Assembly: GCA_016215115.1 (NCBI GenBank)
Contig: JACRLN010000019.1
Location: 1 to 47,817 of the forward strand
Direction: 5' to 3'
DNA: 47,817 bases
Origin: Nitrospirota bacterium
Lineage (GTDB): Bacteria; Nitrospirota; Thermodesulfovibrionia; UBA6902
The notes beneath the pieces were generated by a model that saw only the letters and a program-made list of their open reading frames with translations, was not told where the DNA came from and searched no databases. The translations under genes were made by a program, and so were the position numbers. The number at the start of each line of letters is the position of its first letter. Positions within the stretch are counted from its first letter, which is position 1. Below are positions 7,303 to 35,938 of the stretch, piece by piece.

Positions 7303-7391
7303 TTCATAAACTGTCCCAATGTACTCACGATAAAATCAGTTTTATTAATTATCCGGGATGTATCGGGCATTCAGAAGGCATTGAAAAGAAT

Positions 7392-7432
7392 AGATTCTGG
7401 CTTAAGGACTGCCGGAATGACAGACAGACAAA
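7392..7432. repeat. Half copy of GTCATTCC-type dispersed repeat
   Basis: This is a partial element ending in GGACTGCCGGAATGACAG. The 23 bases at 7401-7423 are identical to 29461-29483 inside the MITE-like element at 29346-29510. It lies in the gap between the coiled-coil gene and the tRNA cluster. The rest of the gap (7303-7553) holds nothing else I recognise, apart from a text-like CATAACTC repeat near 7525. Confidence 0.6.
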
Positions 7433-7553
7433 ATTGAGTTTTTGGACAGGCTCTACTTGCCATATTATAGCGTCTCTATTAAAATACATACTGTCGAAAT
7501 TTGGAGTTTGGAGTTATCAACCCTATGACTCATAACTCTAACCTCTTTAAAAT

Positions 7554-7627
<74 letters not shown>

Positions 7628-7638
7628 TAGCAAAATTT

Positions 7639-7706
7639 GCAGCTTTTAGCGATTAGCTGTCAGCGGTCAGCTTTTTTCTGACAACTGAAACCTGATTGCT
7701 GATAGC
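7639..7706. repeat. AGCTGTCAGC-type palindromic repeat between tRNAs
   Basis: This spacer between tRNA-Arg and tRNA-His is a run of mirrored GATTAGCTGTCAGC and TGCTGATAGCTGTC words that can fold into a long imperfect hairpin. Another copy fills 7820-7883 (between tRNA-His and the second tRNA-Arg). Related copies occur at 33459-33495 and 35357-35472 in the nuo operon. Confidence 0.7.
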
Positions 7707-7717
7707 TGTCGTAAAAT

Positions 7718-7795
7718 GGTGAGTGTAGCTCAGCCGGTTAGAGCATCTGACTGTGGCTCAGAGGGTCGGGGGTTCGAATCCCCTCACTCACCCCA
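7718..7795 (+). tRNA. tRNA-His (GTG)
   Basis: The acceptor GTGAGTG/CACTCAC is preceded by the extra G (-1) opposite C73, the hallmark of tRNA-His. The anticodon loop CTGTGGC gives anticodon GTG. CCA is encoded at 7793-7795. Confidence 0.95.
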
Positions 7796-7816
7796 AATTT
7801 TGCAGGGCAAAATTTG
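7794..7816. repeat. Perfect hairpin just downstream of tRNA-His
   Basis: CAAATTTTGC and GCAAAATTTG form a perfect 10-bp stem with a 3-base loop, beginning inside the CCA end of tRNA-His. No T-run follows. A near-identical hairpin follows tRNA-Arg(CCG) at 7971-7995, and a half copy follows tRNA-Arg(TCT) at 7630-7640. It could be a processing signal or part of a repeat family. Confidence 0.7.
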
Positions 7817-7819
7817 AGC

Positions 7820-7890
7820 GTTCAGCGATTAGCTGTCAGCATTCAGCTTTTTTAACTGACTGCTGATAGCTAAATGCTGACAGTTTTTTT
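7820..7890. repeat. AGCTGTCAGC-type palindromic repeat, second copy
   Basis: The sequence GATTAGCTGTCAGC...CAGC followed by CTGCTGATAGC and a T-run (CAGTTTTTTT, 7881-7890) could act as a Rho-independent terminator for tRNA-His. It is the same family as 7639-7706. Confidence 0.6.
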
Positions 7891-7894
7891 AATT

Positions 7895-7968
7895 GCGCCT
7901 GTAGCTCAGTTGGATAGAGCATCGGCCTCCGGAGCCGAGGGTCGGAGGTTCGAATCCTCTCAGGCGCG
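7895..7968 (+). tRNA. tRNA-Arg (CCG)
   Basis: The acceptor GCGCCTG/CAGGCGC, anticodon stem TCGGC/GCCGA and loop CTCCGGA give anticodon CCG. The D and T arms are canonical, and CCA is not encoded. It shares its acceptor stem with the upstream tRNA-Arg(TCT), so the two may be related by duplication. Confidence 0.95.
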
Positions 7969-7970
7969 TA

Positions 7971-7995
7971 GCAAATTTTGCGATGCAAAATTTGC
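7971..7995. repeat. Perfect hairpin downstream of tRNA-Arg(CCG)
   Basis: GCAAATTTTGC, loop GAT, then GCAAAATTTGC form a perfect 11-bp stem two bases after the tRNA. It is the same stem as the hairpin after tRNA-His. The remaining spacer to 8090 is a text-like GAGTT/AACTC palindromic repeat. Confidence 0.7.
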
Positions 7996-8090
7996 AGTGT
8001 TGAGTTAGGAGTTTTGAGTTTTAAGTTAAATCTCAAATATGAGATTTATTATCTCATAACTAAGAACTCATAATTCATAACTTAATAACA

Positions 8091-8163
<73 letters not shown>

Positions 8164-8178
8164 CTCTTAAAATCAAGG

Positions 8179-8215
8179 GGTTTTCAAGGTGTTTCAGTCT
8201 TGAAAACCTTTTTTT
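8179..8215 (+). terminator. Rho-independent terminator of the tRNA cluster
   Basis: GGTTTTCAAG and CTTGAAAACC form a perfect 10-bp stem with a 10-base loop, followed by seven T residues. It lies 15 bases after tRNA-Lys and before the convergent dinB gene. Confidence 0.85.
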
Positions 8216-8284: not shown

Positions 8285-9508
8285 TCAATTTCTTACATTT
8301 ACATTCCTGACCCCCGAGGGTTTCCACGCAGGGGATATGACGCCCGGCGGTTCTGCTTGTTCAAGATAAGACGCCCAGGTGATGGTGAAGTCCCCGTATT
8401 TGTCATTGATGGAATCAACTGCATTGAGGATGGATTTCTCTTTTGCCCTGTAATCGAATAATGCCATTTGATCATTGTCGTCCCTCTTGAGATGCGAGAG
8501 GGTGACGCCGATCAACCTGATACTGTCCTTCAGCCTTATCGCATTGAGGATGCTCAATGCATAACGGTAAATCTCGTGGGTAATGTTCGTGTGGTCAGGC
8601 AGGGTTGTCTGCTTTGTAAAGGTTTCAAAATCAGGATACCTTATGGTGAGAGTGACCTTCCTCCCAATAAAGCCGTATCTTCTGGCTCTCCTTCCGACCA
8701 TTGCGCTTAATTTCAAAATCTGCGCCTCTATTTTTTTCCTGTCGGATATGTCTTTTGGAAGGGTCATGCTGTGCCCTATGGATTTGGGGTCTTCTTCCCT
8801 GACGATGAGAGGTCTGTGACAGATTCCCTGTCCCATCAACTTCAACGTTTCACCGGTGATGCCGAATTTATTTCTCAGCAAACTTGCCGGTGCATTTCCC
8901 AGTTCACCGCAGGTCCTTATCCCAAGCTCTGCAAGCCTCTGTTCAGTTGCGGAACCGATGCCCCACAGTTCCTTTACAGGAAGGTCTTTAAGGAGAGATT
9001 GCATACTGTCTCCCTTTATCCACATAAACCCGTCCGGCTTTGCAAGATCGCTTGCAAGTTTTGCCATTAAAATATTTGGCGCTATGCCGACAGTGCAATT
9101 TATTCCGAACTGCTTTTTGATTGTGTTTTTAATTAAGAACCCGATAGCCTCAGGACCTCCAAAGAGATGGTGGGTTGTTGTTATATCGAGGAAGGCTTCG
9201 TCTATGGAGTAAATTTCAACATCAGGGGTGAACCTGCTGTAGATTTTGGAAAGCTCTTTACAGGTGTGAGTATATTTCCCGTTATCCCCTACAACAAAGA
9301 TGATATGCGGGCAAAGCTTCTTCGCCTCATAAGTATTCATCCCGGTTTTTACGCCGAATTTTCTGGCCTCGTAGGAGCGGGTCGTAATTACAGTCCTGTG
9401 GCCGGAGCCGATGACCGCTATTGCTTTGCCCCGTAATCGCGGATTCGCCTGCTGTTCTACAGAGGCAAAAAAGGCGTCCATGTCTATACAGAGGATTATG
9501 TTTTTCAT
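8285..9508 (-). CDS. dinB: DNA polymerase IV (Y-family translesion polymerase)
   Basis: This 407-aa Y-family polymerase has the palm metal-binding residues in IDMDAFFASVE (D9, D11) and SIDEAFLD (D103, E104), the YEARKFGVKTGM finger region, HhH-type thumb (KELWGIGSATEQRLAELGI) and the little-finger domain. The length is slightly above the E. coli protein. It synthesises DNA across lesions in the SOS response. It is the last gene of a minus-strand block with lexA (10271-10870) and two small genes, so LexA control is likely. No C-terminal beta-clamp box is obvious to me, although QMALFDY (about 370) is a good candidate internal clamp-binding motif. Confidence 0.95.
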   Translation of the reverse strand: MKNIILCIDMDAFFASVEQQANPRLRGKAIAVIGSGHRTVITTRSYEARKFGVKTGMNTYEAKKLCPHIIFVVGDNGKYTHTCKELSKIYSRFTPDVEIYSIDEAFLDITTTHHLFGGPEAIGFLIKNTIKKQFGINCTVGIAPNILMAKLASDLAKPDGFMWIKGDSMQSLLKDLPVKELWGIGSATEQRLAELGIRTCGELGNAPASLLRNKFGITGETLKLMGQGICHRPLIVREEDPKSIGHSMTLPKDISDRKKIEAQILKLSAMVGRRARRYGFIGRKVTLTIRYPDFETFTKQTTLPDHTNITHEIYRYALSILNAIRLKDSIRLIGVTLSHLKRDDNDQMALFDYRAKEKSILNAVDSINDKYGDFTITWASYLEQAEPPGVISPAWKPSGVRNVNVRN

Positions 9509-19146: not shown

Positions 19147-21612
19147 TTACTTCGTTGCTTCGACATTTACTGCAACTATAGGGCATTCCCCGTTTGAGGA
19201 AATATGCGTGAGGGCATGTATCTTTGCATATGGAAAGTGTGCGGGAACGAAGACGGTACCTTCAGAAATTGCGTCAGAATATTTTGCCTTGAGAAAGACT
19301 GAACCCTGTTTTGAGGTCAGCTTTACATGGCTGTTATCCATGATGCCGCGCTTTTTGGCATCTTCTTCATTTATTTCAAGCAATGCTTCTGAGATAACGA
19401 GGTCCAGGGATTTGGAGCTTGTTGACATACTTCCTGAATGCTGCAGGACATCCCTGATTACAAGCTTGAAGGGATAATTTTCACTTAAGGCCTCACCAGT
19501 TTTGTACTCAACCGGATTGAAAAGCCCCTTCTTTTCAGATGGCGTTTTGTCGAGTAAAAGGGTCTTTATCTCTTCCTGGATATTCTGAAGATTTCTTACC
19601 CCTAATTCCTGTCCCATTACCAATGCAAGGTTTTTCAGTATCATCCAGTCAGGGACAGCCTCGCCTGCGGGGTCCACCAGCCTGTATACTTGTTGCAAAT
19701 TGCCTTCAGCGTTTGTGAAGGTGCCGTCTTTTTCTCCCCAGCTTGATGCAGGAAGAACAACATTTGCAAGCTTTGCAGTTTCTGTAAGGAAAATATCCTG
19801 CACAATCAGAAAGTCTAATGACTTTAATTTCCTGATTATCTTTTCACTGTCAGGAAAGGTAACGGCAGGGTCTTCTCCCATGACATATAATGCATTCAGA
19901 GCGCTGTTTTCGCTGTATAGCATTTCAGTAATTCCCATGTAAAAAGGCTGGTTGGAAGGTCTGACGCCCATCTGATAAAGCCCGTAAGTGTTTGAGTATT
20001 CGGCGGGAATCTGGAGGGCGTCAGGTTTATCACCGAGAAGATTGATCAGGTTTGCGGCTGCAAGAACGGTATCCATCCCTTTTGTGTTTTCCGAAGCGCT
20101 GACAGAAAGAGAAATCATCCTGCTTCCTGCTTTGGCAATTGTTTCCGCTGCAGCAATAAGTTCATTTTCAGGTATCCCTGTAATTATTGAGACCTTTTCG
20201 GGAGTATAATTTTCAAGCGATGATTTAAGGTTGTTGAAGTCAGACACTTTTATCTCAGCTTCTTTATTAAAGAGACCTTTATCAATGATTACTTTCATTA
20301 ATCCGTTTAAAAAGGCGACTCCTGTTCCGTCCTTCAGCCTGAGCCACTGCGTGCTGTGACGCGTTAATTTTGTCTCTCTTGAATCTGCAACAATAAGTTT
20401 TGAGCCTTCTCTTTTTGCCTGGAGAATATTAAGACCAAATACAGGATGTGTTACGCTCAGGTCTGATTCAACAATGAGGAGGACCTCTTTTCCGAGAGGG
20501 AATTTCAGACTTATGGAATGGGTTTTCTCGCCAAAGGCCCTTTCCCAGGCCTTTTGCACTTTTCCATAACCGAATGCGGCAGAGGAGTCGATATTGCTGG
20601 TGCCGATGATCTTTCTCATAAATTTCCGCAGGATATAGTTGTCTTCATTTGTGCATCGGGGTGAACCAATGGCGCCGATTGAATTTGCTCCATGAGCTTT
20701 TATGATGGCGTTGATATTATTTGAAATGTAGGTTAAGGCTTTTTCCCATGATACGGGTACAAATTCATCACCCTCTTTTATTAAAGGTTGTCTTAGTCTT
20801 TTTTCACTGTAAATGTAATCAATGCCGAACCTTCCCCGTCCGCAGAGATTCCCGTCGTTTACGCCTTTGCCTTCAATTCCCCTCGACCTCAGTATTTTCC
20901 CTTCTCTCAAGCCGAGGGTAAGAGTGCAGCCCACGCCGCAGAACGGACAGATGGTATCTTTTTCTTCGAGGAACCAGGATCGGGAAGTAAATTTAAATGG
21001 TTTGCTTAAAATGGCGCCGGTGGGGCATATGTCAAGACATTGTCCGCAATAATCACATTCGAGTATTTCTCCAAAGGCAGGCTGAACAACAGTGGGGAAT
21101 CCTCGTCCGATCAGACCAAGCGCGGCCCTTCCCTGATGTTCTGCGCATATACGTACGCATTTTCCGCAGAGGATGCACCGTCTGGATGTAAGCTCAATCA
21201 AGGGTCCCCTGATGTCGGCTGAAGCCTCTTTTCTATGTCTTAAAAATCGTGCCTCCGGTTTGCCGCACTCATATGCAATATTCTGTAAATCGCACTCCCC
21301 TGCCTTGTCACATTCCGGACAATCAAGCGGATGGTGAACGAGCAGCAGTTCAATAACTGTCTGACGGAGTTTTCTAAGTTTTGGCGTATCAGTGGTGATA
21401 ACCATTCCGTTTTCAGCAGGAGATGAACATGCGGCAAAAAGCCTGGCTTGTCCCTCGACCTCAACGATGCACAGCCTGCAGCCGCCGTAGGGTCTTAACC
21501 TCTTATCATAGCAGAGGTTGGGGATGTAGATATTGTTTTTCAATGCGGCCTGAAGTATCGTCTCACCGTCATTTGCAGTAATCTTCTTGCCGTTTATCGT
21601 AAGATTTATCAT
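19147..21612 (-). CDS. NuoG-like iron-sulfur protein without H-cluster or Mo-ligand residue
   Basis: I choose ATG 21612 (821 aa), with GAAGGA just upstream. A longer in-frame start at 21639 would overlap nuoF. Domains: plant-type [2Fe-2S] (about 1-75, Cys in the YGGCRLC run), His-Cys3 [4Fe-4S] (HHPLDCPECDKAGEC), two [4Fe-4S] motifs (CILCGKCVRIC and CDYCGQCLDIC), then a MopB-fold domain with a further CPFCGVGC...LCGRGRFG cluster. In formate dehydrogenases a Cys or Sec follows in the catalytic loop. Here that loop reads SSAAFGYGK, without it. The three-motif [FeFe]-hydrogenase H-domain is also absent. It is therefore a NuoG/Nqo3-type electron conduit, paralogous to the complex I NuoG at 37255-39819. 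It is predicted to form a soluble complex with the two subunits upstream (4-base gap). Confidence 0.9.
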   Translation of the reverse strand: MINLTINGKKITANDGETILQAALKNNIYIPNLCYDKRLRPYGGCRLCIVEVEGQARLFAACSSPAENGMVITTDTPKLRKLRQTVIELLLVHHPLDCPECDKAGECDLQNIAYECGKPEARFLRHRKEASADIRGPLIELTSRRCILCGKCVRICAEHQGRAALGLIGRGFPTVVQPAFGEILECDYCGQCLDICPTGAILSKPFKFTSRSWFLEEKDTICPFCGVGCTLTLGLREGKILRSRGIEGKGVNDGNLCGRGRFGIDYIYSEKRLRQPLIKEGDEFVPVSWEKALTYISNNINAIIKAHGANSIGAIGSPRCTNEDNYILRKFMRKIIGTSNIDSSAAFGYGKVQKAWERAFGEKTHSISLKFPLGKEVLLIVESDLSVTHPVFGLNILQAKREGSKLIVADSRETKLTRHSTQWLRLKDGTGVAFLNGLMKVIIDKGLFNKEAEIKVSDFNNLKSSLENYTPEKVSIITGIPENELIAAAETIAKAGSRMISLSVSASENTKGMDTVLAAANLINLLGDKPDALQIPAEYSNTYGLYQMGVRPSNQPFYMGITEMLYSENSALNALYVMGEDPAVTFPDSEKIIRKLKSLDFLIVQDIFLTETAKLANVVLPASSWGEKDGTFTNAEGNLQQVYRLVDPAGEAVPDWMILKNLALVMGQELGVRNLQNIQEEIKTLLLDKTPSEKKGLFNPVEYKTGEALSENYPFKLVIRDVLQHSGSMSTSSKSLDLVISEALLEINEEDAKKRGIMDNSHVKLTSKQGSVFLKAKYSDAISEGTVFVPAHFPYAKIHALTHISSNGECPIVAVNVEATK

Positions 21613-21616
21613 TCCT

Positions 21617-23470
21617 TCACCCCCCAGCCTTTCCAGCAAGTTCAGGTATGTCTTTTATATCTTTGCATCCCGCAGGGCCTACTTTTATTGAACCGAATTT
21701 GCACGTATCATAGCATGTTCTGCATTGTATGCAGAGCTCCTGAATGATCCTGTGAGGGACCTTTTTTTCTCCGACAATTGCCTTTTGGGGGCAGGCCCTT
21801 AAACAGGCGCCGCAGGCCTTGCACAATTCTTCATCGATGTGGAAGGAGCAGAGTTTACTGCATATCCCTGCCTTGCACCAGTGGTCTTTTATATGTGATT
21901 CATATTCGTCTTTGAAATATCGTATTGTTGACAGGACAGGATTGGGAGCCGTCTGTCCCAGTCCGCAGAGGGATGTTGAAATAATATCCCTGCTGAGGTC
22001 CTGAAGCGTTTCTATGTCCCCGTCTTTTCCTTTGCCTTCAGTGATATCGGTAAGCATATCAAGCATTACCCTTGTGCCGACCCTGCACGGCGTGCATTTC
22101 CCGCAGGATTCATCAGCAGTGAATTCGAGGAAGAATTTTGAAGTGCTGACCATGCAGGTGTCTTCGTCCATGACGACCATTCCGCCTGAACCCATGATTG
22201 CGCCGGTCTTGACAACATCTTCATATGTAACAGGTATGTCGATAAGGCTCTCAGGGATGCAGCCGCCTGACGGGCCTCCCATTTGCACCGACTTGAACTT
22301 CTTCTTTTTGTTCTTCATCCCGCCGCCGATGTCGTATATTATCGTTCTCAGCGGGATCCCCATCGGCACTTCAACAAGACCGACGTTTCTTATATCGCCT
22401 GTGAGGGCAAACACCTTTGTGCCGGTACTTTTTTCCGTACCAAGGTTCTTGTACCATTCAGCGCCGTTCAGGATAATCAGCGCAATTTGTGCAAGTGTTT
22501 CAACATTGTTCAGAACGGAAGGTTTATCCCACAAGCCTTTATGCGCAGGGAAGGGTGGTCTCGGTCTCGGCATGCCGCGTTTACCTTCAATAGAACGCAT
22601 AAGTGCGGTTTCTTCACCGCATACAAATGCGCCTGCGCCGAGATATATTTCAAGGTCAAATGTGAAACCGCTGTTCAGGATATTTTCTCCAAGAAGTCCT
22701 GATTCGTAACATTTGTCTATCGCCAATTGAAGGCGCTTTACCGCGAGAGGGTATTCGGCTCTTACGTATATAACTCCTTTGCTTGCGCCTATCGCCTTTG
22801 CACCTATAATCATTCCTTCAATTACTGAGTGCGGGTCTGCCTCCATGACCGATCTGTCCATAAAGGCCCCCGGGTCTCCTTCATCGCCGTTACACAGCAT
22901 GTATTTCTGATCTGCCTGCGATTTTGATGCGAATTCCCATTTTAATCCTGTCGGAAACCCGGCTCCTCCGCGCCCCCTGATCCCTGAATCTTTCATAACT
23001 TTTATTATGTCGGCAGAGGTCATTTCATTAAGCGCCTTTGCAGCAGCCATATATCCGTCCCTTGCAATATATTCGTCAAGACTTTCGGGGTCTATCAACC
23101 CCTTGTTTCTCAGGACCCTCAAGACCTGGAACTTAAAGAATGGAATATCTTTCATCAAAGGGATTGCCAGTTTTTTCTCCGGCTCCCTGAACATCAATTT
23201 TTCGTAGGGTCTGCCTTTCAGAAAATGTTCTTCAACCAGCTTGGGAATCTCGTCAACAGTAAGTTTCTGGTAAAAAATTTCATCAGGATAAACGAGCATC
23301 ACGGGCCCCTCAGCGCAGAATCCGTTACAGCCTGTGAGTACAATCTTTATTTCATCTGCAAGTCCCCTCTTTTCGAGTTCTTCCTGCAATGCAGCTTTCA
23401 CCTTAGGGGTTCCGCTTGCAACGCAACCGGTCCCTGCGCACAGCAGTAAATTCGCACGAATTTTTTCCAT
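21617..23470 (-). CDS. NuoF/HydB-type diaphorase with C-terminal ferredoxin domain
   Basis: The 617-aa protein has an N-terminal thioredoxin-like [2Fe-2S] domain (CAGTGC, TGCNGFC; about 1-90), the FMN/NADH-binding core (GRGGAGFPTGLKW, LCNGDEGDPGAFMDR), the [4Fe-4S] site CGKCTPCR...SLCGLGQ and a C-terminal two-cluster ferredoxin domain (CKACGACLRAC, CIQCRTCYDTC; about 545-600). Complex I NuoF (420 aa, 35975-37237) lacks the end domains. The extended form is the HydB/HndC type found in bifurcating hydrogenases and related NAD(H)-ferredoxin enzymes, so NADH oxidation or reduction coupled to ferredoxin is plausible. The operon order (HndA-, HndB-, HndC-like, then NuoG-like) supports a soluble complex. 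Confidence 0.92.
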   Translation of the reverse strand: MEKIRANLLLCAGTGCVASGTPKVKAALQEELEKRGLADEIKIVLTGCNGFCAEGPVMLVYPDEIFYQKLTVDEIPKLVEEHFLKGRPYEKLMFREPEKKLAIPLMKDIPFFKFQVLRVLRNKGLIDPESLDEYIARDGYMAAAKALNEMTSADIIKVMKDSGIRGRGGAGFPTGLKWEFASKSQADQKYMLCNGDEGDPGAFMDRSVMEADPHSVIEGMIIGAKAIGASKGVIYVRAEYPLAVKRLQLAIDKCYESGLLGENILNSGFTFDLEIYLGAGAFVCGEETALMRSIEGKRGMPRPRPPFPAHKGLWDKPSVLNNVETLAQIALIILNGAEWYKNLGTEKSTGTKVFALTGDIRNVGLVEVPMGIPLRTIIYDIGGGMKNKKKKFKSVQMGGPSGGCIPESLIDIPVTYEDVVKTGAIMGSGGMVVMDEDTCMVSTSKFFLEFTADESCGKCTPCRVGTRVMLDMLTDITEGKGKDGDIETLQDLSRDIISTSLCGLGQTAPNPVLSTIRYFKDEYESHIKDHWCKAGICSKLCSFHIDEELCKACGACLRACPQKAIVGEKKVPHRIIQELCIQCRTCYDTCKFGSIKVGPAGCKDIKDIPELAGKAGG

Positions 23471-23568: not shown

Positions 23569-23952
23569 TTAATATGTCGTTTCACTCCCGACGACCAGGG
23601 CGTACTTTTCTACAGGATTACCGCCGAGGACATGTTCCTTAAATATCTCCCGTATCTTCTCGCCGTCAAGGTCGCCGTATTTTACAGGTGGCTTGTTCAG
23701 TATTTCCACTGTGACCATGGGTTCACGGGCACAAAGACCAGCGCATCCTGAAGTTGTCGTAATTACATCTTCTACTTTGGATTTTTCTATTTCATCCAAT
23801 AATGACGTCATAATCTCCCTCGCCCCTGCAGCAATTCCGCATGTTCCCATATGAACGGTAACCTTGGCCCTGTAACCGCCTTCTCTCAATGCAAATGTGG
23901 ATTTCTGTTTTTCCTTTATCTTTTTTAAGTCGTCAATTGTTAATCTTGCCAT
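23569..23952 (-). CDS. Thioredoxin-like [2Fe-2S] subunit (HndB type)
   Basis: The 127-aa protein has a basic helical N-terminus (about 1-25) and a thioredoxin-like ferredoxin fold with Cys in MGTCGIAAGA and TSGCAGLCAREP, followed by the beta strand MVTVEIL. The family is the small HndB-type [2Fe-2S] subunit that accompanies NuoE- and NuoF-like partners in NAD(P)-reducing hydrogenases. It transfers electrons inside the complex. It lies between the receiver-NuoE fusion and the HydB-type gene on the same strand. Confidence 0.9.
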   Translation of the reverse strand: MARLTIDDLKKIKEKQKSTFALREGGYRAKVTVHMGTCGIAAGAREIMTSLLDEIEKSKVEDVITTTSGCAGLCAREPMVTVEILNKPPVKYGDLDGEKIREIFKEHVLGGNPVEKYALVVGSETTY

Positions 23953-23984
23953 TGTGTGTTCTCCTTTTTAATACCTACCATGAT

Positions 23985-24088
23985 GTCATTCCGTGCTTGA
24001 CACGGAATCCATGGTTCGACAGGCTCACCATGACGATTGTCACCCTGAGCTTGTCGAAGGGCTGGATCCCCACTTTCGCGGGAATGAA
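23985..24088. repeat. GTCATTCC-type dispersed element with inserted words
   Basis: It is bounded by GTCATTCCGTGCTTGACAC and CGCGGGAATGA. The middle carries a TTCGACAGGCTCACC...GAGCTTGTCGAAGG inverted repeat, itself a widespread repeat motif. It lies between the HndB-like gene and the REC-NuoE gene. Confidence 0.7.
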
Positions 24089-24094
24089 GTTTTT

Positions 24095-24124
24095 GACGAG
24101 TTCAACTTTTAAATTGAACTCGTC
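24095..24124. repeat. Perfect hairpin after the receiver-NuoE gene
   Basis: GACGAGTTCAA and TTGAACTCGTC form a perfect 11-bp stem with an 8-base loop, two bases beyond the REC-NuoE stop codon. There is no T-run on the coding side, so it is more likely an mRNA-stabilising or processing structure than a terminator. Confidence 0.75.
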
Positions 24125-24126
24125 TT

Positions 24127-24996
24127 TCATCTATACTTTTCAATAATATCCGGAACCTTCTTCGGGTTCATTGCGCCATAAGTTTCTTCGTCTATTACCA
24201 TGACAGGCGCCAATCCGCACGCGCCGAGACAGCGAACGGTTTCGAGTGAAAATTTCTTGTCTTCCGTTACCTCTCCGACAGCTATCTTAAGATCACCTTT
24301 AATTTTATTCAGAACTTCCTCAACTCTCTTTACATAGCAGGCAGTGCCAAGACATATCCTGATGTTGTGGTCGCCTCTGGGTTTCATGGTGAAAAAGGAA
24401 TAAAAGGAAACAATACTGTGGATCTCAGCCGGTGTTGTGTTCAGTCCCTTTGCAATGCGCTTCTGTACGACAGGAGGGAGATAACCAACGATTCCCTGAC
24501 AGCGCTGAAGCACGGGAATAGAACTGCCGGGTTTGTTCTTGTACTGATTTATAATCCTGTCTATTTCCTGAAGCATTGAGGGTGGGAGCTCTTCTTTTTC
24601 CTTTTTGACAACCGGCGCTTTTCCTTTTACCCATTCGACCGCCCTTCTGGTCACATCCAGCAGCACCGCAGGAGTAAATGGTTTTGGCACATAATCTATA
24701 ATGCCAAGCTCAAGGGCGTCTTTAATGGTATCCTGTGAAGGATAACCAGTAATTATCACGATACCTGTGTCAGGTCTTTTTTGTTTAATCCATCGTATGA
24801 GGGTTATCCCGTCTACCTCGGGCATTTTCAGGTCGGTGAAGACAAGGTCGTAAGGCTGTTGTTCCATCCTGAGTATTGCCTTTTTTGCGCCAAGTGTTCC
24901 CTCGACATTATATCCTTCAGACTTAAGGATAGCCTCACAGCTTCTTATAATTATGGGCTCATCGTCTACGATAAGGATTTTCAAATCATCTGCCAT
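24127..24996 (-). CDS. Response-regulator receiver fused to NuoE/HydC subunit
   Basis: I choose ATG 24996 (289 aa). An upstream GTG at 25008 overlaps the GTGAGG ribosome binding site. Residues 1-120 are a complete receiver: acidic pair D11-D12, phospho-acceptor D55 (FTDLKMPEVDG), conserved Thr in IITGYP, Lys in PKPF. A short Lys/Glu linker (about 121-137) leads to a full NuoE-type thioredoxin-like [2Fe-2S] domain (about 138-289) with the four ligands as CLGTAC and CLGACG (C-x4-C, C-x3-C). Stand-alone NuoE is at 35474-35938. The fusion lets phosphorylation act directly on a redox subunit. It is in one operon with HndB-, HndC- and NuoG-like genes. Confidence 0.93.
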   Translation of the reverse strand: MADDLKILIVDDEPIIIRSCEAILKSEGYNVEGTLGAKKAILRMEQQPYDLVFTDLKMPEVDGITLIRWIKQKRPDTGIVIITGYPSQDTIKDALELGIIDYVPKPFTPAVLLDVTRRAVEWVKGKAPVVKKEKEELPPSMLQEIDRIINQYKNKPGSSIPVLQRCQGIVGYLPPVVQKRIAKGLNTTPAEIHSIVSFYSFFTMKPRGDHNIRICLGTACYVKRVEEVLNKIKGDLKIAVGEVTEDKKFSLETVRCLGACGLAPVMVIDEETYGAMNPKKVPDIIEKYR

Positions 24997-25020
24997 TAAA
25001 AGCCTCACTTTCAGTCATTA

Positions 25021-25085: not shown

Positions 25086-25853
25086 CTACTCACTGCTTAA
25101 CGGGAATACCCTTGCGAGCCACAGTAGCCAGCCTTCTGAAAGATGATCTTTCAGCAAGGCGACCATGACGTCGTTTGCTTTCAAATTAACTTCTCTTAAT
25201 TCGCCGTTCATGGGTGATAGAAGTTCGCTTCCATGACCGCTGCTTGTAAAAATCCTTGCAAAAGGTTTTCCGGCTTCAATTTTAACTATATCTCTGATAA
25301 ATTCAACATACATGAGATTGCCTGATAACATCAAGTATCTGAGATCGCATCCGATTTCCCATAAACCGTCTTTAACAGGCCGCGCCCATGTTCCCTCTTT
25401 GTAGAAGATGACAGGGTTTTCTTTATCCCGCAGCGGGGTGATGGAGTCTCTGAACTCGTCAATAAATGCCTGTCTCAAAATCCATCCCTTTGTGTCAAAT
25501 ATCTTTTTTGCAACATTGATCATAAAGTCGGGGGTGAAAGGTTTTTCGATATATTCAAACGCCCCAAGCCTGGTAGATTCCCTTGCGTCTTCCAGTGTGG
25601 GATAACCGGTGATTATGACAACATCTGTCTTGGGCTTGATGACACGGGCTTCCTTGAGCACTACCATTCCGTTTATGTCAGGGAGCCTGACATCCGAAAT
25701 GAGGAGGTCGAAGTCTTCTTTAGCGAGCTTGTTGAGGGCGTCTTCTCCTCTTTCCACAGTTGTTATGCTGTAACCTTCCGCGCCGAGAATCCTCTTGCAG
25801 CTTAAAGTTACAACCGGATCGTCATCAAGTACTAAAATTTTCCCCTTTTCCAT
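25086..25853 (-). CDS. Receiver fused to a GcvH-like (lipoyl-type) domain lacking the lysine
   Basis: The 255-aa protein has a receiver (about 1-122: D10-D12 acidic pocket, D54 in ISDVRLPDI, T in IITGYP, K in EKPF). Its second domain (about 155-250) follows the glycine-cleavage H-protein pattern: an early GLWEIGCD strand, YVEF, an AGKPFA turn, SPMNGELREVN, and the closing EGWLLWLARV. In GcvH the turn before SP carries the lipoylated Lys (VKAASD-type). Here it is SSGHGSELLSP, with Gly where Lys should be. Lipoylation is thus not expected. There is no DNA-binding output. The gene lies upstream of the REC-NuoE gene in the same operon. Confidence 0.85.
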   Translation of the reverse strand: MEKGKILVLDDDPVVTLSCKRILGAEGYSITTVERGEDALNKLAKEDFDLLISDVRLPDINGMVVLKEARVIKPKTDVVIITGYPTLEDARESTRLGAFEYIEKPFTPDFMINVAKKIFDTKGWILRQAFIDEFRDSITPLRDKENPVIFYKEGTWARPVKDGLWEIGCDLRYLMLSGNLMYVEFIRDIVKIEAGKPFARIFTSSGHGSELLSPMNGELREVNLKANDVMVALLKDHLSEGWLLWLARVFPLSSE

Positions 25854-26031: not shown

Positions 26032-26583
26032 CTATTGTAGCATATTATCTGTACTAATTAACCATGCACTTATATCGTCTTTAATAAATTTTATTACATC
26101 CGGCGAATTCATTGGAACACCATCCAGCTCCTGCCTGATTTCGGAAATATTTAAACTGTATAAGCTGTCGTTTCTCCTGTGTTCAAAGATAAAGTCGATC
26201 CCGGGATGCGAGGCGACCAGGACTATAATGGTATCCCCGATATTTCCAAGAGGTTTTCTGTCTATATGATCATACTGAAAAAAAACATGAATCGCTGTGC
26301 CTTTGCCTTTTTCCGTTTTTATGTCCAGGTCTCCATTACATTCTCTTGCAGACTGTGCCAGCAGCGGAATCCCCAGACCGGTACGCTTGCATGCCTTTGT
26401 GGTAAAAAAAGGGTCAAAAACCTTTTTCATTGTTTCCTCATCCATCCCCTTTCCGTTATCGCTGATTTCGATGGATAGAATATTTTCTCTGGTGTCTTCA
26501 ATTATCTTTATCTTGATTTCAGAAGCTTCGGCTGTAATCGAATTTTCTGCAATGTCGAGGATGTGTAATGAGAGGTCTTTCAT
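26032..26583 (-). CDS. Orphan HATPase (histidine-kinase-type ATP-binding) protein
   Basis: The 183-aa protein consists of one HATPase domain: N box (HILDIAENSITA, about 7-18), G1 (DNGKGM, about 42-47), F box (FDPFFTT), G2 (TGLGIPL). A C-terminal extension of about 65 residues has no clear fold. There is no dimerisation/phospho-acceptor His domain, so it is not a complete histidine kinase. Such orphan ATPases recur in the accessory sets of [FeFe]-hydrogenase operons. It could phosphorylate a partner Ser/Thr like RsbW or T, or act as an ATP sensor. Its start at 26583 faces the divergent DUF4143 ATPase promoter. Confidence 0.88.
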   Translation of the reverse strand: MKDLSLHILDIAENSITAEASEIKIKIIEDTRENILSIEISDNGKGMDEETMKKVFDPFFTTKACKRTGLGIPLLAQSARECNGDLDIKTEKGKGTAIHVFFQYDHIDRKPLGNIGDTIIVLVASHPGIDFIFEHRRNDSLYSLNISEIRQELDGVPMNSPDVIKFIKDDISAWLISTDNMLQ

Positions 26584-26711: not shown

Positions 26712-27908
26712 ATGATAAAAAGAATCCTCTCCATGAAGTTTCGTGAGACCGCCGGGAAATACCCTGTTGTCTTCATAAGCGGGCCGAGACAATCGGGAAA
26801 AACCACTCTCGCAAGGATGTCTTTCCCGAAATACAAATATGTCTCCCTTGAGGATATTGACGAAAGGAATTTTGCAAAAGATGACCCGCGGGGCTTTCTC
26901 TCAAGGTATCATCATAATATTATCCTTGATGAAATTCAGAGAGTCCCGGAACTTTTCTCATATTTACAGACTGAAATAGATCGTGATGACGCACCCGGAA
27001 GATTCATTCTCACGGGGTCGCAGCAGTTCCTTTTAATGGAGAAGATAGGACAAACGCTTGCAGGGCGTGTGGCGCTTCTTCATCTGTTGCCGTTCAGTCT
27101 GTCCGAGCTTGCCGGTTCAAGACCGATAGACCCGTTTAAATTTGAAGATACCAAAACGGTAAAGAAGATTCCGCCGTATCCGCTTGAGATAATTTTGCAT
27201 CAGGGGCTTTATCCGAGGATATACGATAAAAAACTTATGGCCCATCAATGGCTCGGCGATTATTACAGGACATATGTTGAAAGGGACGTGAGGGATGTCC
27301 TGAAAATAGGGAACCTTGACACTTTTCAGAGGTTTGTACGCCTGTGCGCGGGACGCTCAGGACAGATATTGAACCTGTCTTCACTGGCAAATGACTGCGG
27401 CATTACACATCCTACGGCAAGACAATGGATATCTGTGCTTCAGGCAAGTTTTATAATTACACTTATTCAGCCACACTATGCGAATTTTTCAAAACGGCTG
27501 ATTAAAAGTCCTAAACTCTATTTCCTTGATTCAGGACTGCTTTGTTATCTTCTAAGGATAAGAGAGCCTGAAGAACTTAAGACCCATGCAATGAGAGGAG
27601 CAATATTTGAGAGCTTTATAATCTCCGAAATTTATAAGGCATTTGCCAATATCGGCGAAGAACCTCCTCTCTATTTCTGGCGGGACCGCACAGGTCATGA
27701 GATCGACCTTATTATCGATATGGGGCAGAAACTGCTCCCTGTTGAAATCAAGTCTTCTTATACAATTGCATCAGATTTTTTTGACGGCATCAAATACTGG
27801 CTGTCTTTAAAGGGTAATGTGCAGAAAACAGGGGCGCTTGTCTACGCCGGAAAAGAGCATTACAAAAGAGAAGGACTGTCGGTTAAAGCATGGTATGAGT
27901 GCTCGTAA
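26712..27908 (+). CDS. AAA ATPase with DUF4143 domain, inserted within the redox cluster
   Basis: The 398-aa protein has P-loop SGPRQSGKTT (about 20-30), Walker B ILDEIQRVPELF (about 73-84), sensor FILTGSQQF, and the DUF4143 C-terminus with GHEIDLIID...LPVEIKSSYT (D...E-x-K). It is a diverged paralogue of 12103-13254. It is on the plus strand, opposite to all its neighbours, and separates the HATPase gene from the PHP/DRTGG genes that would otherwise be one operon. The adjacent broken higA suggests an accessory insertion. The biological role of the family is unresolved. Confidence 0.9.
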   Translation: MIKRILSMKFRETAGKYPVVFISGPRQSGKTTLARMSFPKYKYVSLEDIDERNFAKDDPRGFLSRYHHNIILDEIQRVPELFSYLQTEIDRDDAPGRFILTGSQQFLLMEKIGQTLAGRVALLHLLPFSLSELAGSRPIDPFKFEDTKTVKKIPPYPLEIILHQGLYPRIYDKKLMAHQWLGDYYRTYVERDVRDVLKIGNLDTFQRFVRLCAGRSGQILNLSSLANDCGITHPTARQWISVLQASFIITLIQPHYANFSKRLIKSPKLYFLDSGLLCYLLRIREPEELKTHAMRGAIFESFIISEIYKAFANIGEEPPLYFWRDRTGHEIDLIIDMGQKLLPVEIKSSYTIASDFFDGIKYWLSLKGNVQKTGALVYAGKEHYKREGLSVKAWYECS

Positions 27909-28237: not shown

Positions 28238-28981
28238 TTACCCCCACTCGACCCTTCTGCCGTCAATGCTTTTGAAAGTCAATTTAATTTCTTCAAGCGT
28301 CGGCTCATTCATGATAAAGCTTGTTGTCCTTCTTCCGATATCTTTCAGCCAATGTGCATCAGAGGAGGTGATCCAGGAGAACGATTTATAGCCGCTGAAC
28401 AAAAGGTCTGCTTTTCCCCGCTCTGTATTGGGCGACATCTCTAATGCATCAAATTCCAAATCGTCAGGGATAAATCCAAGTTGGGATAAAATGCTAAAGG
28501 CATCCCTGTCAACATGGGAGGCGATGGCGAGTCCGCCGAGTGAATGAATGGTGTTTACAATTTTCTGTGCAGACAATGATGTTGCGCCTATCAGGAGGCG
28601 TTTATTGAAATCCAGAACCTCGTCTTTTTCATTAACGACAATTTGTTCACCAAACAGTTTTTCGTCGTTTTCTCCTGGTTGCAGATTTTCGCACACAATA
28701 TCCTCCATTTTAATAATGCTTCCAATATCGTCAAAAAACGCCAGGATGTGCGCTTCTTCTGATGAGGTTATCTCCATCCCTGCAAGGACTGTTAAGGTTG
28801 TACGTTCAGCGGCTTTCCGGGCAGCGATAACATTTTCTGCTGAATTGTGGTCGGTTATGGCAATTATATCAATTCCCTTTTCAATAGCAGTTTTGATTAT
28901 CGCGGAAGGAGTCATTTCAAGGTCGGCACATGGAGAGAGGCAGGTGTGTATGTGGAGGTCAGATCGGAATATTTTCAGCAT
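28238..28981 (-). CDS. PHP-domain metal-dependent phosphoesterase
   Basis: The 247-aa protein shows the PHP motifs SDLHIHTCLSPCAD (H10, H12), ITDHNSAEN, an internal GLAIASHVDRD and a C-terminal SSDAHW. All are metal ligands of TrpH-like phosphoesterases. The family hydrolyses phosphate esters such as 3',5'-nucleotides. The start is coupled to the DRTGG gene upstream (TAATG overlap). PHP, DRTGG and HATPase genes recur together beside trimeric hydrogenases, where their role is not established. Confidence 0.92.
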   Translation of the reverse strand: MLKIFRSDLHIHTCLSPCADLEMTPSAIIKTAIEKGIDIIAITDHNSAENVIAARKAAERTTLTVLAGMEITSSEEAHILAFFDDIGSIIKMEDIVCENLQPGENDEKLFGEQIVVNEKDEVLDFNKRLLIGATSLSAQKIVNTIHSLGGLAIASHVDRDAFSILSQLGFIPDDLEFDALEMSPNTERGKADLLFSGYKSFSWITSSDAHWLKDIGRRTTSFIMNEPTLEEIKLTFKSIDGRRVEWG

Positions 28982-29313
28982 TATTTAAGAAGCAGATAAA
29001 TTTTACCTGCTATCTCAAACGCAGGCATCGACGTTGTTGTGATTGTAATTTTTTCATCCTCTGCTTTTTTCAACGTTTCTTCCGGTATCTGTCTGTTACT
29101 GACAATGACAATTCCTTTTATACCTTTTAAACTTGCAACCGCCACAATGTTCATATGCGTCTGAAGGGTTATCCATATGTTGCCTTCTTTGCTGTTTGCC
29201 ATTACATCGGAAAGCAGGTCGCTTACATAGGCTCCTGTGACGTTGTTTTGAAGACCGTCTTTGTAAGTTTTAATCTCCAGCGATAATTCTTTTACAATGT
29301 CTGAAAGTTTCAT
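28981..29313 (-). CDS. DRTGG-domain protein, first copy
   Basis: The 110-aa protein is a single DRTGG-type alpha/beta domain: VTGAYVSDLLSDVM in place of the DRTGG strand, IWITLQTHMNIVAVA, and IVIVSNRQIPEETL. The family is found next to CBS domains and Ptas, and as small proteins in hydrogenase clusters. It probably binds a small ligand. A second copy is at 29999-30352. It overlaps the PHP gene by one base. Confidence 0.85.
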   Translation of the reverse strand: MKLSDIVKELSLEIKTYKDGLQNNVTGAYVSDLLSDVMANSKEGNIWITLQTHMNIVAVASLKGIKGIVIVSNRQIPEETLKKAEDEKITITTTSMPAFEIAGKIYLLLK

Positions 29314-29557: not shown

Positions 29558-29995
29558 CTAAGGAAAATTTATTACCATCTCCACTGTTGTCCCTTCCCCG
29601 ACAACAGAGTCAATTTTAAACAGATCTGAATTTTTTTTCATATTCGGCAGGCCCATGCCGGCGCCCCAGCCCATTTCTCTTACCCAATCAGGCGCGGTGG
29701 AATAGCCTTCCTGCATTGCCAGCTCAATATTTTCTATCCCCGGTCCCATATCCGCTATTTTTATTGTAATGCTCCGGGAAGTTATGTAATAATGCAGCCA
29801 GCCTGCCGCTGCATATATAATTACATTCATCTCCGCCTCGAAGGTTGCTATTGTGGCACGCCGTATGATTGTTTCATCAACGCCAAGCTCTGAAAGTTTT
29901 AGTTTTAACTGGGTAGACGCCTCTCCTGCCGTTGTAAAATTTCCGCCGATTAACTGAAAAGTTCCATCTATAGTTCCATCTATATTTAACGGCAT
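29558..29995 (-). CDS. RsbT/anti-sigma-type serine kinase ATPase
   Basis: The 145-aa HATPase of the GHKL anti-sigma type has N box FEAEMNVIIYA (about 52-62), G1 DMGPGIEN (about 81-88) and G2 GWGAGMGLPNMKKNSD (about 108-123). Such proteins phosphorylate an antagonist Ser or sequester a sigma factor. Neither an STAS antagonist nor a sigma factor is next to it. It lies between the two DRTGG genes, only three bases after the second, and is part of the same accessory set. Confidence 0.88.
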   Translation of the reverse strand: MPLNIDGTIDGTFQLIGGNFTTAGEASTQLKLKLSELGVDETIIRRATIATFEAEMNVIIYAAAGWLHYYITSRSITIKIADMGPGIENIELAMQEGYSTAPDWVREMGWGAGMGLPNMKKNSDLFKIDSVVGEGTTVEMVINFP

Positions 29996-29998
29996 ATT

Positions 29999-30352
29999 TT
30001 AATCATTCAGGGAACTGCGCAGGCCTGCCTGATACAGTTTCCCTGAGGCGGTATACATACAGAACGGCGTGCTGAGGAGAGGGATTTTTTTCTGCCCGGC
30101 AAGTTCGACTGTGCGCTCATCGGGTTTCTTGTTCAGAACGAATACAATAGCTTTGGTGCCGGCAATTTCCGCTGTCCGGATTACGTTTATCTGGGTAAGA
30201 CCGGTTATCAGGAGGGAGTCTATCGAATGATAATACAGCACATCACTCATCAAATCAGCGCTGCAGGCGCTCCGGATATTTAAATCCTCTAAATCCGCTG
30301 GCCGGACTATAACCGTTGCTTCAAGGATTTCAGTTATTTTGCTTAGTGTCAC
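29999..30352 (-). CDS. DRTGG-domain protein, second copy
   Basis: The 117-aa single-domain DRTGG protein (SACSADLMSDVLYY, LLITGLTQINVIRTA, IVFVLNKKPDERTV) is a diverged paralogue of the 110-aa copy at 28981-29313. It ends three bases before the RsbT-like gene. Ligand and target are unknown. Confidence 0.82.
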   Translation of the reverse strand: MTLSKITEILEATVIVRPADLEDLNIRSACSADLMSDVLYYHSIDSLLITGLTQINVIRTAEIAGTKAIVFVLNKKPDERTVELAGQKKIPLLSTPFCMYTASGKLYQAGLRSSLND

Positions 30353-30386: not shown

Positions 30387-30761
30387 TCATTTAATTTCCC
30401 CTGATTTTTTAAAGGACTCTTTGACAGCAGCAAGCAACGTATCAGGGGTAAAAGGTTTTTCTATGAAATTATAAGCGCCTAATCTTAATGCCTGCACGGC
30501 GGTTTCAACAGTGCTGTAACCGGTAATCATTACGACCTTTGTATCGGGCCAGGTTGCATTGATTTTATTCAGAACTTCAATGCCATCCATGTCAGGCATT
30601 TTCAGGTCAAGCAGTACCAGGCTGAAAGACTCTTTCTCAAGAAATTTAATACCCTCTTTACCGCTGGCTGCCAGCCTGATTTCATATCCCTCTGGCAAAA
30701 GCGCCCTTTCACAGCTTATCCTTACAATTGCTTCATCGTCTATTACCAGTATTTTTTTCAT
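30387..30761 (-). CDS. Stand-alone response-regulator receiver
   Basis: The 124-aa protein is a receiver domain only: acidic pair D8-D9, phospho-acceptor D52 (LLDLKMPDMDG), Thr in MITGYS and Lys in EKPFTP. No output domain is present. It overlaps the upstream sensor-kinase gene by four bases (ATGA), so the kinase is its near-certain donor. Its sequence is very close to the receivers fused to NuoE and to the GcvH-like domain, suggesting that all three descend from one receiver and may share the kinase. Confidence 0.92.
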   Translation of the reverse strand: MKKILVIDDEAIVRISCERALLPEGYEIRLAASGKEGIKFLEKESFSLVLLDLKMPDMDGIEVLNKINATWPDTKVVMITGYSTVETAVQALRLGAYNFIEKPFTPDTLLAAVKESFKKSGEIK

Positions 30762-32365
30762 TTTCCCTCTTCCGTCAAAGGTAGTCTAACAAAAAAACTT
30801 GTTCCTTTACCAACTACGCTTTTTACTTTTATATATCCCCCTAAATGCTTAACAATGCCGTGACTGACCGAGAGTCCAAGGCCTGTGCCTTTACCAACAG
30901 GTTTTGTAGTAAAAAATGGTTCGAACAGCTTAGGCATGTCTTCTTCCTTTATTCCCTGCCCTTCGTCTGTAAATTCTATCTCGATGTAGGGTTTGCCGTT
31001 TTCCATTATACTGCGTGTTGCAACTATTATCCGGCCTCTCTCATTCATGGCGTCGGCAGCGTTGATAAACATGTTCAGAAAAATCTGCTGGAATTGAGAC
31101 GGATCTCCTACGATAATGAACTGGGCATCTTCCAGTTTAATATCAAATTTAATGTGATGAAATTTTACCTGGTTCTGAACCATGAATATTGTACGGTTAA
31201 GTATTTCGTTTATACTTACTTTTCCCTTTTCAGAAGGAGTAGCGCGGGCGAAGGTCAGGAGGTTTTTTATTATCTTTGAACACCTGTCAGCCTGTTCGAT
31301 AATAATAGCGAGATCCTCCGATTCCGTACTCTCCTCAGGAAAACGCTTCTTGAGTAAATGTGCAAAGGTTACAACCCCTGTAAGAGGGTTATTTATTTCA
31401 TGTGCCACGCCCGCTGCCATCCGTCCTAAAGATGCGAGTTTTTCAGTCTGTATAAGGTTCGCATTGGTCCTCTGTATTTCTTCAGCCTTTTTCGCAATTT
31501 CCGCCTCAAGGGTCTGGGTCCATTTTTCTCCCTGATCACGTGCAGTCTTTAAGTCTTTTATCATGGAGTTGAAGGTCTGAGCCAGCACCCCCATTTCATC
31601 TGTGGATTTTATGGGAACGGAATAATCAAGATTTCCGCCTGCGACTTTCTCCATACCATTAACAAGCACGCTGACAGGTCTGGAAACTATCTTATAGATA
31701 ATTATACCGAGAAACAACGATACAGCAAGAACAAATATTATTACATAGGCGGTTAGGGCGAGTCCCTGTCTCAGCAAGGCTTCATCAAGAAACGCAAGAG
31801 AAAGCTGGGCATCAACGAATCCAAGTATTTTCTGATTTCTTGGATGTACGTGACATGCTGCAGTATAGCAGGCGGGTTCATTCGGGATTTCACCAATGGT
31901 ATGAAGCGTCCTGAAGCCCTGATTATTTTTATAAACTATCCATTTTTGCTGTTCCTGTAAAAGAGCGGGAGATCTTTCCGGGTCCGTATGACATCCTTTG
32001 CATGCAACAGAAGTTTTATCAATGACCTGTCCCACACTTTGCTTGTGTGAGGAGAATAAAATATTTCCTTTATGGTTGTATATGCTTACTCTCTGAACGC
32101 CTTCCGGTGTACTGAGAGTTACAAGCACTCGTTGTGTTTCATCCCGCTGGAAATTGAGCATGCTGTGGTAGATGCTTTCTTTTGTAAAATTTACAAAAGA
32201 GCCGCCGTATCTGACAGCGATAGACATAATATCTTTTTGCTGCTTGGTGAGGATGGCATACCAGAAGATTAAGGTCAAAACGACCATCAGAGCGCCGATG
32301 GCAATGATGAGTTTTGCCGCAATGGACTTCCCAGGGTGTCTGAAAATAGTTTTCATACCGGACAT
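30758..32365 (-). CDS. Sensor histidine kinase with periplasmic c-type-heme motifs
   Basis: The 535-aa protein has an N-terminal transmembrane helix (about 18-38), a periplasmic sensor (about 40-200), a second helix (about 204-224), HAMP (about 225-278), HisKA with H322 (AAGVAHEINNPLTG) and HATPase (N box, G1 DEGQGI, G2 GTGLGLSV). The sensor carries CKGCH (122-126), a canonical c-type-heme motif, and CYTAACH (166-172), a C-x4-CH variant. A periplasmic heme would make it a redox or gas sensor. It is divergent from nuoA and coupled to the stand-alone receiver by a four-base overlap. The start may instead be M4 (32356), since a TATAAT lies two bases before ATG 32365. Confidence 0.93.
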   Translation of the reverse strand: MSGMKTIFRHPGKSIAAKLIIAIGALMVVLTLIFWYAILTKQQKDIMSIAVRYGGSFVNFTKESIYHSMLNFQRDETQRVLVTLSTPEGVQRVSIYNHKGNILFSSHKQSVGQVIDKTSVACKGCHTDPERSPALLQEQQKWIVYKNNQGFRTLHTIGEIPNEPACYTAACHVHPRNQKILGFVDAQLSLAFLDEALLRQGLALTAYVIIFVLAVSLFLGIIIYKIVSRPVSVLVNGMEKVAGGNLDYSVPIKSTDEMGVLAQTFNSMIKDLKTARDQGEKWTQTLEAEIAKKAEEIQRTNANLIQTEKLASLGRMAAGVAHEINNPLTGVVTFAHLLKKRFPEESTESEDLAIIIEQADRCSKIIKNLLTFARATPSEKGKVSINEILNRTIFMVQNQVKFHHIKFDIKLEDAQFIIVGDPSQFQQIFLNMFINAADAMNERGRIIVATRSIMENGKPYIEIEFTDEGQGIKEEDMPKLFEPFFTTKPVGKGTGLGLSVSHGIVKHLGGYIKVKSVVGKGTSFFVRLPLTEEGK

Positions 32366-32433: not shown

Positions 32434-32470
32434 TTGACAGGGATGGCTGTTTTTGTGTATAAAAAACAGC
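32434..32470 (+). promoter_or_regulatory. nuo operon promoter with overlapping dyad
   Basis: TTGACA (32434-32439), an 18-base spacer and TATAAA (32458-32463) lie ten bases before the nuoA ATG at 32474, predicting a leader of only a few bases. The dyad GCTGTTTTT (32446-32454) / AAAAACAGC (32462-32470) covers the -10 box and could be a repressor or activator site. The intervening region to 32366 is the divergent control region shared with the heme-sensor kinase. Confidence 0.65.
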
Positions 32471-35473: not shown

Positions 35474-35938
35474 ATGTTTAACGAAACAGTATTAAAAGAG
35501 ATAAACGAGATAAGAGCGAAATATCCTGACAGGAGGAGTGCCCTTCTGCCTTCATTGTATATTGCACAGAGAGAGTTCGGCTGGCTGAGTCATGAAGCTA
35601 TGCAGTTTGTTGCAAGAACACTCAATTTGCCGGAGGCTGAAGTAAGAGGGACCGCGTCCTTCTACGCAATGTTCAAACATAAACCGGTGGGGCGTAATCT
35701 TATACAACTCTGCACAAACGTGTCATGCATGATTTTGGGCTCTGAGGGACTTCTGGATTTTCTTAATAAGAGATACGGGGTTGAGCCTGACGGAACGTCT
35801 GGTGATGGACGGTTTTCTCTCGTAATTATGGAATGTATAGGCGCCTGCGGCACGGCTCCGGCAATGCTGGTGAATACAGATTTCCATGATAATCTGACAG
35901 AGCAAAGGATAGAGGAGATATTGGAGAAATACAAGTAG
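35474..35938 (+). CDS. nuoE: Complex I subunit E
   Basis: The 154-aa thioredoxin-like [2Fe-2S] subunit carries CTNVSC and CIGACGTAPAM (cluster N1a ligands). It is unfused, in contrast to the receiver-NuoE protein at 24127-24996. The stop codon TAG is supplied by the GTAGGGGC palindrome that follows. Confidence 0.97.
   Translation: MFNETVLKEINEIRAKYPDRRSALLPSLYIAQREFGWLSHEAMQFVARTLNLPEAEVRGTASFYAMFKHKPVGRNLIQLCTNVSCMILGSEGLLDFLNKRYGVEPDGTSGDGRFSLVIMECIGACGTAPAMLVNTDFHDNLTEQRIEEILEKYK

Follow-up and report, generated by a model that had tools for sequence, protein, structure and literature searches.

In response regulators with enzymatic output domains, a receiver is coupled to an enzyme-type domain and not to a DNA-binding one. 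The locus described here departs from this group because the domain joined to its receiver transfers electrons within a larger multi-subunit complex and is no enzyme in its own right. The closest complexes are the HydABC/Bfu enzymes, with which the locus shares a BfuB subunit carrying an N-terminal [2Fe-2S] domain, an FMN domain and C-terminal clusters, a four-cysteine BfuC and the cluster cysteines of BfuA, and from which it differs by a receiver on BfuC, a degenerate formate dehydrogenase (FDH)-like domain in BfuA and added two-component genes. In Bfu enzymes, the C1 cluster has been proposed as a gate between the low- and mid-potential paths and is viewed as conserved in all members (PMC9304861), and HydC is located near the mobile HydB bridge (PMC9499530). 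The words "kinase", "histidine" and "response" are absent from the main text of the Bfu survey (PMC9304861), and no published description of a receiver-NuoE/HydC fusion was found among the open-access papers searched.

A receiver associated with an NADH dehydrogenase is represented by mycobacterial Rv3143/MSMEG_2064, which binds complex I and is a proposed modulator acting by protein contact (PMC9274095). Rv3143 is a separate orphan regulator found mainly on NuoD, whereas here the receiver is covalently attached to the NuoE/HydC subunit of a Bfu enzyme and a likely kinase is encoded nearby. Caulobacter FixT (PMC7078487) likewise combines a receiver and an Fe-S cluster in one polypeptide within a haem kinase pathway, but it consists of one receiver domain, which has a four-cysteine motif of its own, and acts as a kinase inhibitor, while in the present protein the cluster belongs to a separate NuoE domain. 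Finally, the sensory-hydrogenase clusters exemplified by Tam HydS (PMC8163306) also place HATPase-bearing regulatory genes beside HydABC-type genes, and a DRTGG/PHP/HATPase set occurs with a HydS-like gene at one related locus (L124); unlike those clusters, the locus studied here has no hydrogenase, and its input is a two-component system with a receiver on the enzyme. Electron bifurcation governs the use that anaerobes make of their low-potential electrons, and the environmental switching of such complexes is largely obscure.

The window, a stretch of 47,817 nucleotides from a member of the Thermodesulfovibrionia (Nitrospirota), carries on its minus strand a gene in which a receiver is joined to a NuoE-type subunit (Table 1). 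The first-pass annotation had placed it correctly as one 289-residue frame, leaving the strand unstated. The frame runs from an ATG at 24996, preceded by AAAGTGAGGCTTTTA with the Shine-Dalgarno-like GTGAGG, to a stop at 24127; stops are present on the plus strand of the same interval. Residues are numbered here according to a 293-residue reading from an in-frame GTG at 25008, and subtraction of four gives the numbers used in the first-pass annotation. A repeat-like sequence of the CACCCTGAGCTTGTCGAAGGG type occupies positions 23953–24126, between the fusion and ferredoxin genes.

Table 1. Features of the locus in minus-strand order from kinase to BfuA, followed by the ordinary complex I nuoE, which is outside the system and given for contrast only.
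Feature	Position	Strand	Basis
Histidine kinase, HAMP-HisKA-HATPase, N-terminal sensor region with two haem-c-like motifs	30758..32365	-	Pfam
RR1, single-domain response regulator, overlaps kinase gene	30387..30761	-	PF00072, 111 bits
DRTGG-domain protein	29999..30352	-	Pfam; syntenic in relatives and sister class
HATPase_c_2 (anti-sigma-like) protein	29558..29995	-	Pfam
Second DRTGG-like protein	28981..29313	-	Pfam, below cut-off
PHP-domain phosphoesterase-like protein	28238..28981	-	Pfam
HATPase_c protein without HisKA domain	26032..26583	-	Pfam
Receiver-GcvH-like fusion, 255 aa, directly upstream of receiver-NuoE	25086..25853	-	PF00072, 88 bits; PF01597, 26.9 bits
Receiver-NuoE (receiver-BfuC) fusion, 289 aa	24127..24996	-	Pfam PF00072 and PF01257
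Fusion sub-parts: receiver, then linker, then NuoE half	receiver ~24652-24978; NuoE half ~24130-24564	-	
Thioredoxin-like [2Fe-2S] ferredoxin subunit, HndB-like in position	23569..23952	-	PF01257, 20.7 bits, below cut-off; conserved neighbour
BfuB/HydB-like NuoF, N-terminal [2Fe-2S] and C-terminal 2x[4Fe-4S], 617 aa	21617..23470	-	Pfam, HydB alignment
BfuA, NuoG/FdhA-like, 830 aa, without formate dehydrogenase catalytic residue (Gly357)	19147..21639	-	FdsA-type FDH alignment
Complex I nuoE	35474..35938	+	PF01257, 169.9 bits; TIGR01958 above cut-off

The N-terminal half of the protein matches the Pfam family Response_reg (PF00072) at residues 11–119, with 101 bits over profile positions 1–109 of 111, and the C-terminal half matches 2Fe-2S_thioredx (PF01257) at residues 149–293, with 164 bits over the full profile (145/145). 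The receiver has the acidic pair Asp15 and Asp16, the phospho-accepting Asp59, Thr87 and Lys109, and shows the order of β and α elements of a CheY fold in the predicted model. The NuoE half comprises a helical and a thioredoxin-like part, matches HydC/NuoE in fold, and carries the four cluster cysteines Cys219, Cys224, Cys260 and Cys264. No stop or frameshift lies between the two halves; both Pfam domains share one uninterrupted frame, in agreement with the earlier statement that the receiver is covalently part of a [2Fe-2S] subunit. Pfam and NCBIfam scans found no DNA-binding output domain on the fusion, which sets it apart from transcriptional response regulators. In the AlphaFold model (pTM 0.46) the two folds are separate and joined by a disordered linker with pLDDT below 50, with no confident receiver/NuoE interface and no defined relative orientation.

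The nine functional positions, five in the receiver and four cysteines, already reported as intact by the first-pass annotation, are invariant in 85 distinct homologues, the exception being one row without an N-terminus, and the linker is mostly 24–26 residues long in this set. That annotation had proposed a search for the fusion over genomes and named a missed stop, a frameshift or a lack of conservation as grounds for abandoning it; nothing of the kind appears in the 85 homologues. Of 61 related genomes, about 50 carry the fusion; in a sample of 296 Nitrospirota genomes it is present at full length in about 75, each of these 75 belonging to the class of the window. Among the contig matches to the fusion, the best 80 of 264 are all of Nitrospirota type, by name or by neighbourhood, and a search of plasmids gave no convincing receiver-NuoE fusion. 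Between close relatives, dN/dS is 0.02–0.06 for the receiver and 0.02–0.04 for the NuoE half, with a looser linker; judged from these values, both halves are under purifying selection. In a tree of the NuoE halves, all fused sequences cluster together (support 88/87, not starred), which is consistent with a single fusion event. Apart from truncated or split cases, the fusion-less genomes among 32 tested also lack a close (>70%) BfuB orthologue, retaining at most paralogues at about 55% identity. Two receiver-less NuoE genes, L123 (genome G033) and L160 (G023), were considered as natural losses of the receiver and rejected: both start directly after a 100-N scaffold gap and are thus assembly truncations, and L123 still carries FPPSMLQEID, as in the fusion.

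The genes downstream of the fusion identify its partner enzyme as a Bfu-family (HydABC-like) NADH/ferredoxin module of which, by homology, the fusion is the BfuC subunit. BfuB aligns with HydB of the bifurcating NiFe hydrogenase (7T2R_B) with 826 bits, the ligand motifs being kept, and with HydB of bifurcating FeFe hydrogenases with 672–802 bits (7Q4V_B, 802), far above the roughly 380 bits reached at most with complex I NuoF. It contains the FMN, NADH_4Fe-4S, N-terminal [2Fe-2S] and C-terminal Fer4 cluster domains, and BfuC is adjacent. This pair is the BfuBC core in the sense of Schut et al. (PMC9304861). The best match of the NuoE half is HydC of the same NiFe enzyme, 7T2R, and Foldseek concurs. 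The earlier description of a NuoE redox subunit therefore stands as regards the [2Fe-2S] NuoE-type domain, which is closest to HydC of Bfu enzymes and not to complex I. Indeed, assignment of the fusion as the complex I NuoE was rejected, because a separate nuoE is present at 35474 within a divergent nuoA-N operon that begins at 32453 and has its own NuoEFG, and because the fusion scores 118.5 bits against the NuoE model TIGR01958 (cut-off 142.4) and falls below the cut-offs of the other NuoE equivalogs. In loci with testable flanks, BfuB lies downstream of the fusion in 71 of 72 and BfuA in 63 of 65. At two loci in relatives, the nuo operon itself houses the Bfu and two-component genes, in the nuoE/nuoF gap at L080 and the nuoD/nuoE gap at L090.

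Although the cluster cysteines of BfuA are present in 58/58 relatives, the position of the formate dehydrogenase cysteine is Gly357 in all 58 and the next histidine is replaced by Tyr358 in 55 of them. A formate dehydrogenase function was thus rejected, the catalytic Cys/Sec-His pair being absent, as was a hydrogenase function of the module, which has no H-cluster domain. By its BfuB homology, the module would catalyze NADH/ferredoxin bifurcation or confurcation.

An unfused state of the same module exists in another Nitrospirota class (family f25), where NuoE lacks a receiver (54–60% identical) and lies within the nuo operon in the order nuoABCD, DRTGG, CBS-HATPase, DRTGG, PHP, HATPase, NuoE, ferredoxin, Bfu-type NuoF and NuoG. 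This arrangement fits the Nuo-Bfu type of Schut et al., clade 39, reported in Nitrospirae and Planctomycetes (PMC9304861). The loci of this sister class showed neither a kinase nor a receiver gene, which suggests that the two-component parts were added in the Thermodesulfovibrionia.

The first gene of the minus-strand series encodes the kinase. The first-pass annotation had called it a heme kinase. Its haem-c-like motifs are conserved (C122xxCH in 32/34 sequences, C166x4CH in 34/34), as is the HisKA phospho-acceptor His322 (34/34), and the two motifs are predicted to lie between two membrane helices. The kinase is found within 10 kb of the fusion in 29 of the 46 loci with testable flanks and not within that distance in the other 17; it is likely the cognate kinase of the fusion. 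Of 76 loci with testable flanks, 71 have the receiver-GcvH gene upstream of the fusion. Its product has Asp10, Asp11, Asp54 and Lys104 in 69/69 sequences and Thr82 in 68/69, while its lipoyl-lysine position is not conserved, being His in the window, Gln in 39/69 and Lys in 16/69. This protein is a receiver on an H-protein-like domain that is probably not lipoylated, conserved class-wide. Pfam detected no DNA-binding domain on RR1 or receiver-GcvH. Among the 63 receivers of the genome, those of the fusion, RR1 and receiver-GcvH group together with moderate support (SH-aLRT 87–89), one stray, L217, falling inside the group beside RR1; we read this grouping as a sign that the receivers arose by duplication at the locus and that one kinase probably serves all three. 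On the opposite strand, a DUF4143 AAA ATPase gene (26712–27908, plus strand) interrupts the regulatory genes; some relatives show a similarly sized gap.

What could a receiver do on such a subunit? Direct post-translational control is the simplest reading of a fusion that has no DNA-binding domain, and we give an even chance to a mechanism in which the haem-c kinase phosphorylates Asp59 of the receiver on BfuC and bifurcation or confurcation is thereby controlled. The haems of the kinase would sense extracytoplasmic redox state or a gas, and the kinase would transfer phosphate to Asp59 and to the sibling receivers. The receiver, held on its flexible linker, would sit close to the C1 [2Fe-2S] cluster and to the mobile C-terminal bridge of HydB. 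With C1 as the proposed gate and HydC near the bridge, a receiver on BfuC is well placed to alter bifurcation; its phospho-dependent change would raise or lower NADH/ferredoxin bifurcation or confurcation. Rv3143, the proposed contact modulator of complex I, is a precedent for a receiver that acts on an NADH dehydrogenase (PMC9274095). Post-translational control of electron flow, as first proposed, thus keeps its footing in the lack of a DNA-binding domain, while the "diaphorase" or electron flow concerned is better described as ferredoxin bifurcation or confurcation. The earlier interpretation is right in spirit, regulation being a hypothesis. The fusion suggests that in the Thermodesulfovibrionia, which are deep-living anaerobes, an outside redox signal may adjust energy metabolism on the enzyme and not via genes.

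The best comparative evidence, as we take it, for a role of the receiver half apart from electron transfer comes from a second Bfu complex, found at 12 loci in relatives (L116, positions 8333–9157; L117–L122; L126; L166–L169). Its paralogous BfuC still has a receiver followed by the helical part of NuoE but stops short of the thioredoxin-like half; in Pfam, only roughly the first half of that profile is matched, and the four-cysteine set is lost in 12/12, in conflict with the view that C1 is conserved in all Bfu enzymes (PMC9304861). The phospho-accepting Asp is kept in 10/12, being replaced by Glu in the other two, and all five receiver residues are kept in 5/12; the main-line fusion, unlike this paralogue, strictly keeps both halves. 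Persistence of the receiver and helical half without a cluster argues that the receiver half contributes something other than electron transfer, although the paralogues that lack the phospho-accepting Asp (2/12) or other receiver residues count against direct control, as do the model without a confident receiver/NuoE interface, the 17 of 46 loci with no kinase inside 10 kb and the moderate support for the receiver grouping. A bolder version, in which the phosphorelay gates bifurcation at the C1 subunit on an extracytoplasmic, haem-sensed signal, so changing the division of electrons among NADH, ferredoxin and a third partner, and the receiver subunit of the sister complex, having shed its cluster, is purely regulatory, has in our view clearly less than an even chance. 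NfnA- and NfnB-like genes lie immediately upstream of the paralogue at both loci examined (L116 and L118). The fusion is a class-wide, selected arrangement for which both an unfused earlier state and this cluster-less offshoot are seen, by sequence comparison a stronger case than the first-pass annotation had stated.

Information could also flow the other way: oxidation or reduction of the [2Fe-2S] cluster, or the occupancy of the complex, would change phosphate handling by the receiver, so that the enzyme reports NADH/ferredoxin status to the kinase, RR1 and receiver-GcvH. Three grouped receivers at one locus are a layout suited to competition for phosphate, and the Fe-S-binding receiver FixT inhibits its kinase FixL (PMC7078487). 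Yet RR1 and receiver-GcvH, having no DNA-binding domain, leave such a signal without a downstream reader, and the paralogue retains its receiver after the cluster is lost; we regard reporting by the enzyme as unlikely. We are equally doubtful that phosphorylation controls not turnover but the association of BfuC with BfuAB, complex I or receiver-GcvH/RR1. The nuo operon adjoins the locus in relatives, L080 and L090 place the Bfu genes within nuo, the sister-class module sits inside nuo, and receiver plus helical half is precisely what the paralogue keeps, all of which would suit a docking role; against it, there is no sign of a docking partner, and complex I has its own NuoEFG. A mere tether, by which the receiver attaches a signalling protein to the enzyme for co-expression or localisation and its phosphorylation has no effect on the enzyme, would accord with the flexible linker and the modelled lack of a confident interface, but the phosphorylation residues are invariant in 85 proteins, as expected only if phosphorylation matters, and this explanation is very improbable. 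That a missed stop, frameshift or mis-assembly fused two genes is practically impossible, the same frame being found across many independent assemblies of about 19 families, which are covered by the 61 relatives and the 296-genome sample together: the fusion is neither chance nor an assembly join.

If direct control through Asp59 operates, a phosphorylatable domain on the proposed gate subunit, together with a likely kinase in the locus, would offer a genetic handle for switching bifurcation in vitro, and the same handle would let the roles of C1 and the HydB bridge be probed. Regulatory add-ons of other kinds are also seen on the module: the sister-class HATPase carries a CBS domain, the HATPase_c_2 protein of the L090 cluster (7310–8179) has a receiver of the same type attached to it, and L124 encodes a HydS-like sensory [FeFe]-hydrogenase-DRTGG protein. 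The L124/L125 loci (G006, 7% contamination) carry a NuoE-HATPase-HydS-DRTGG-PHP-HATPase-NuoE-ferredoxin-NuoF cluster, an unfused hydrogenase-type counterpart. At L164 (7425–10269, G049), the kinase, RR1 and receiver-GcvH genes occur together with no adjoining receiver-NuoE or Bfu genes, which indicates that these three signalling genes can occur independently of the enzyme.
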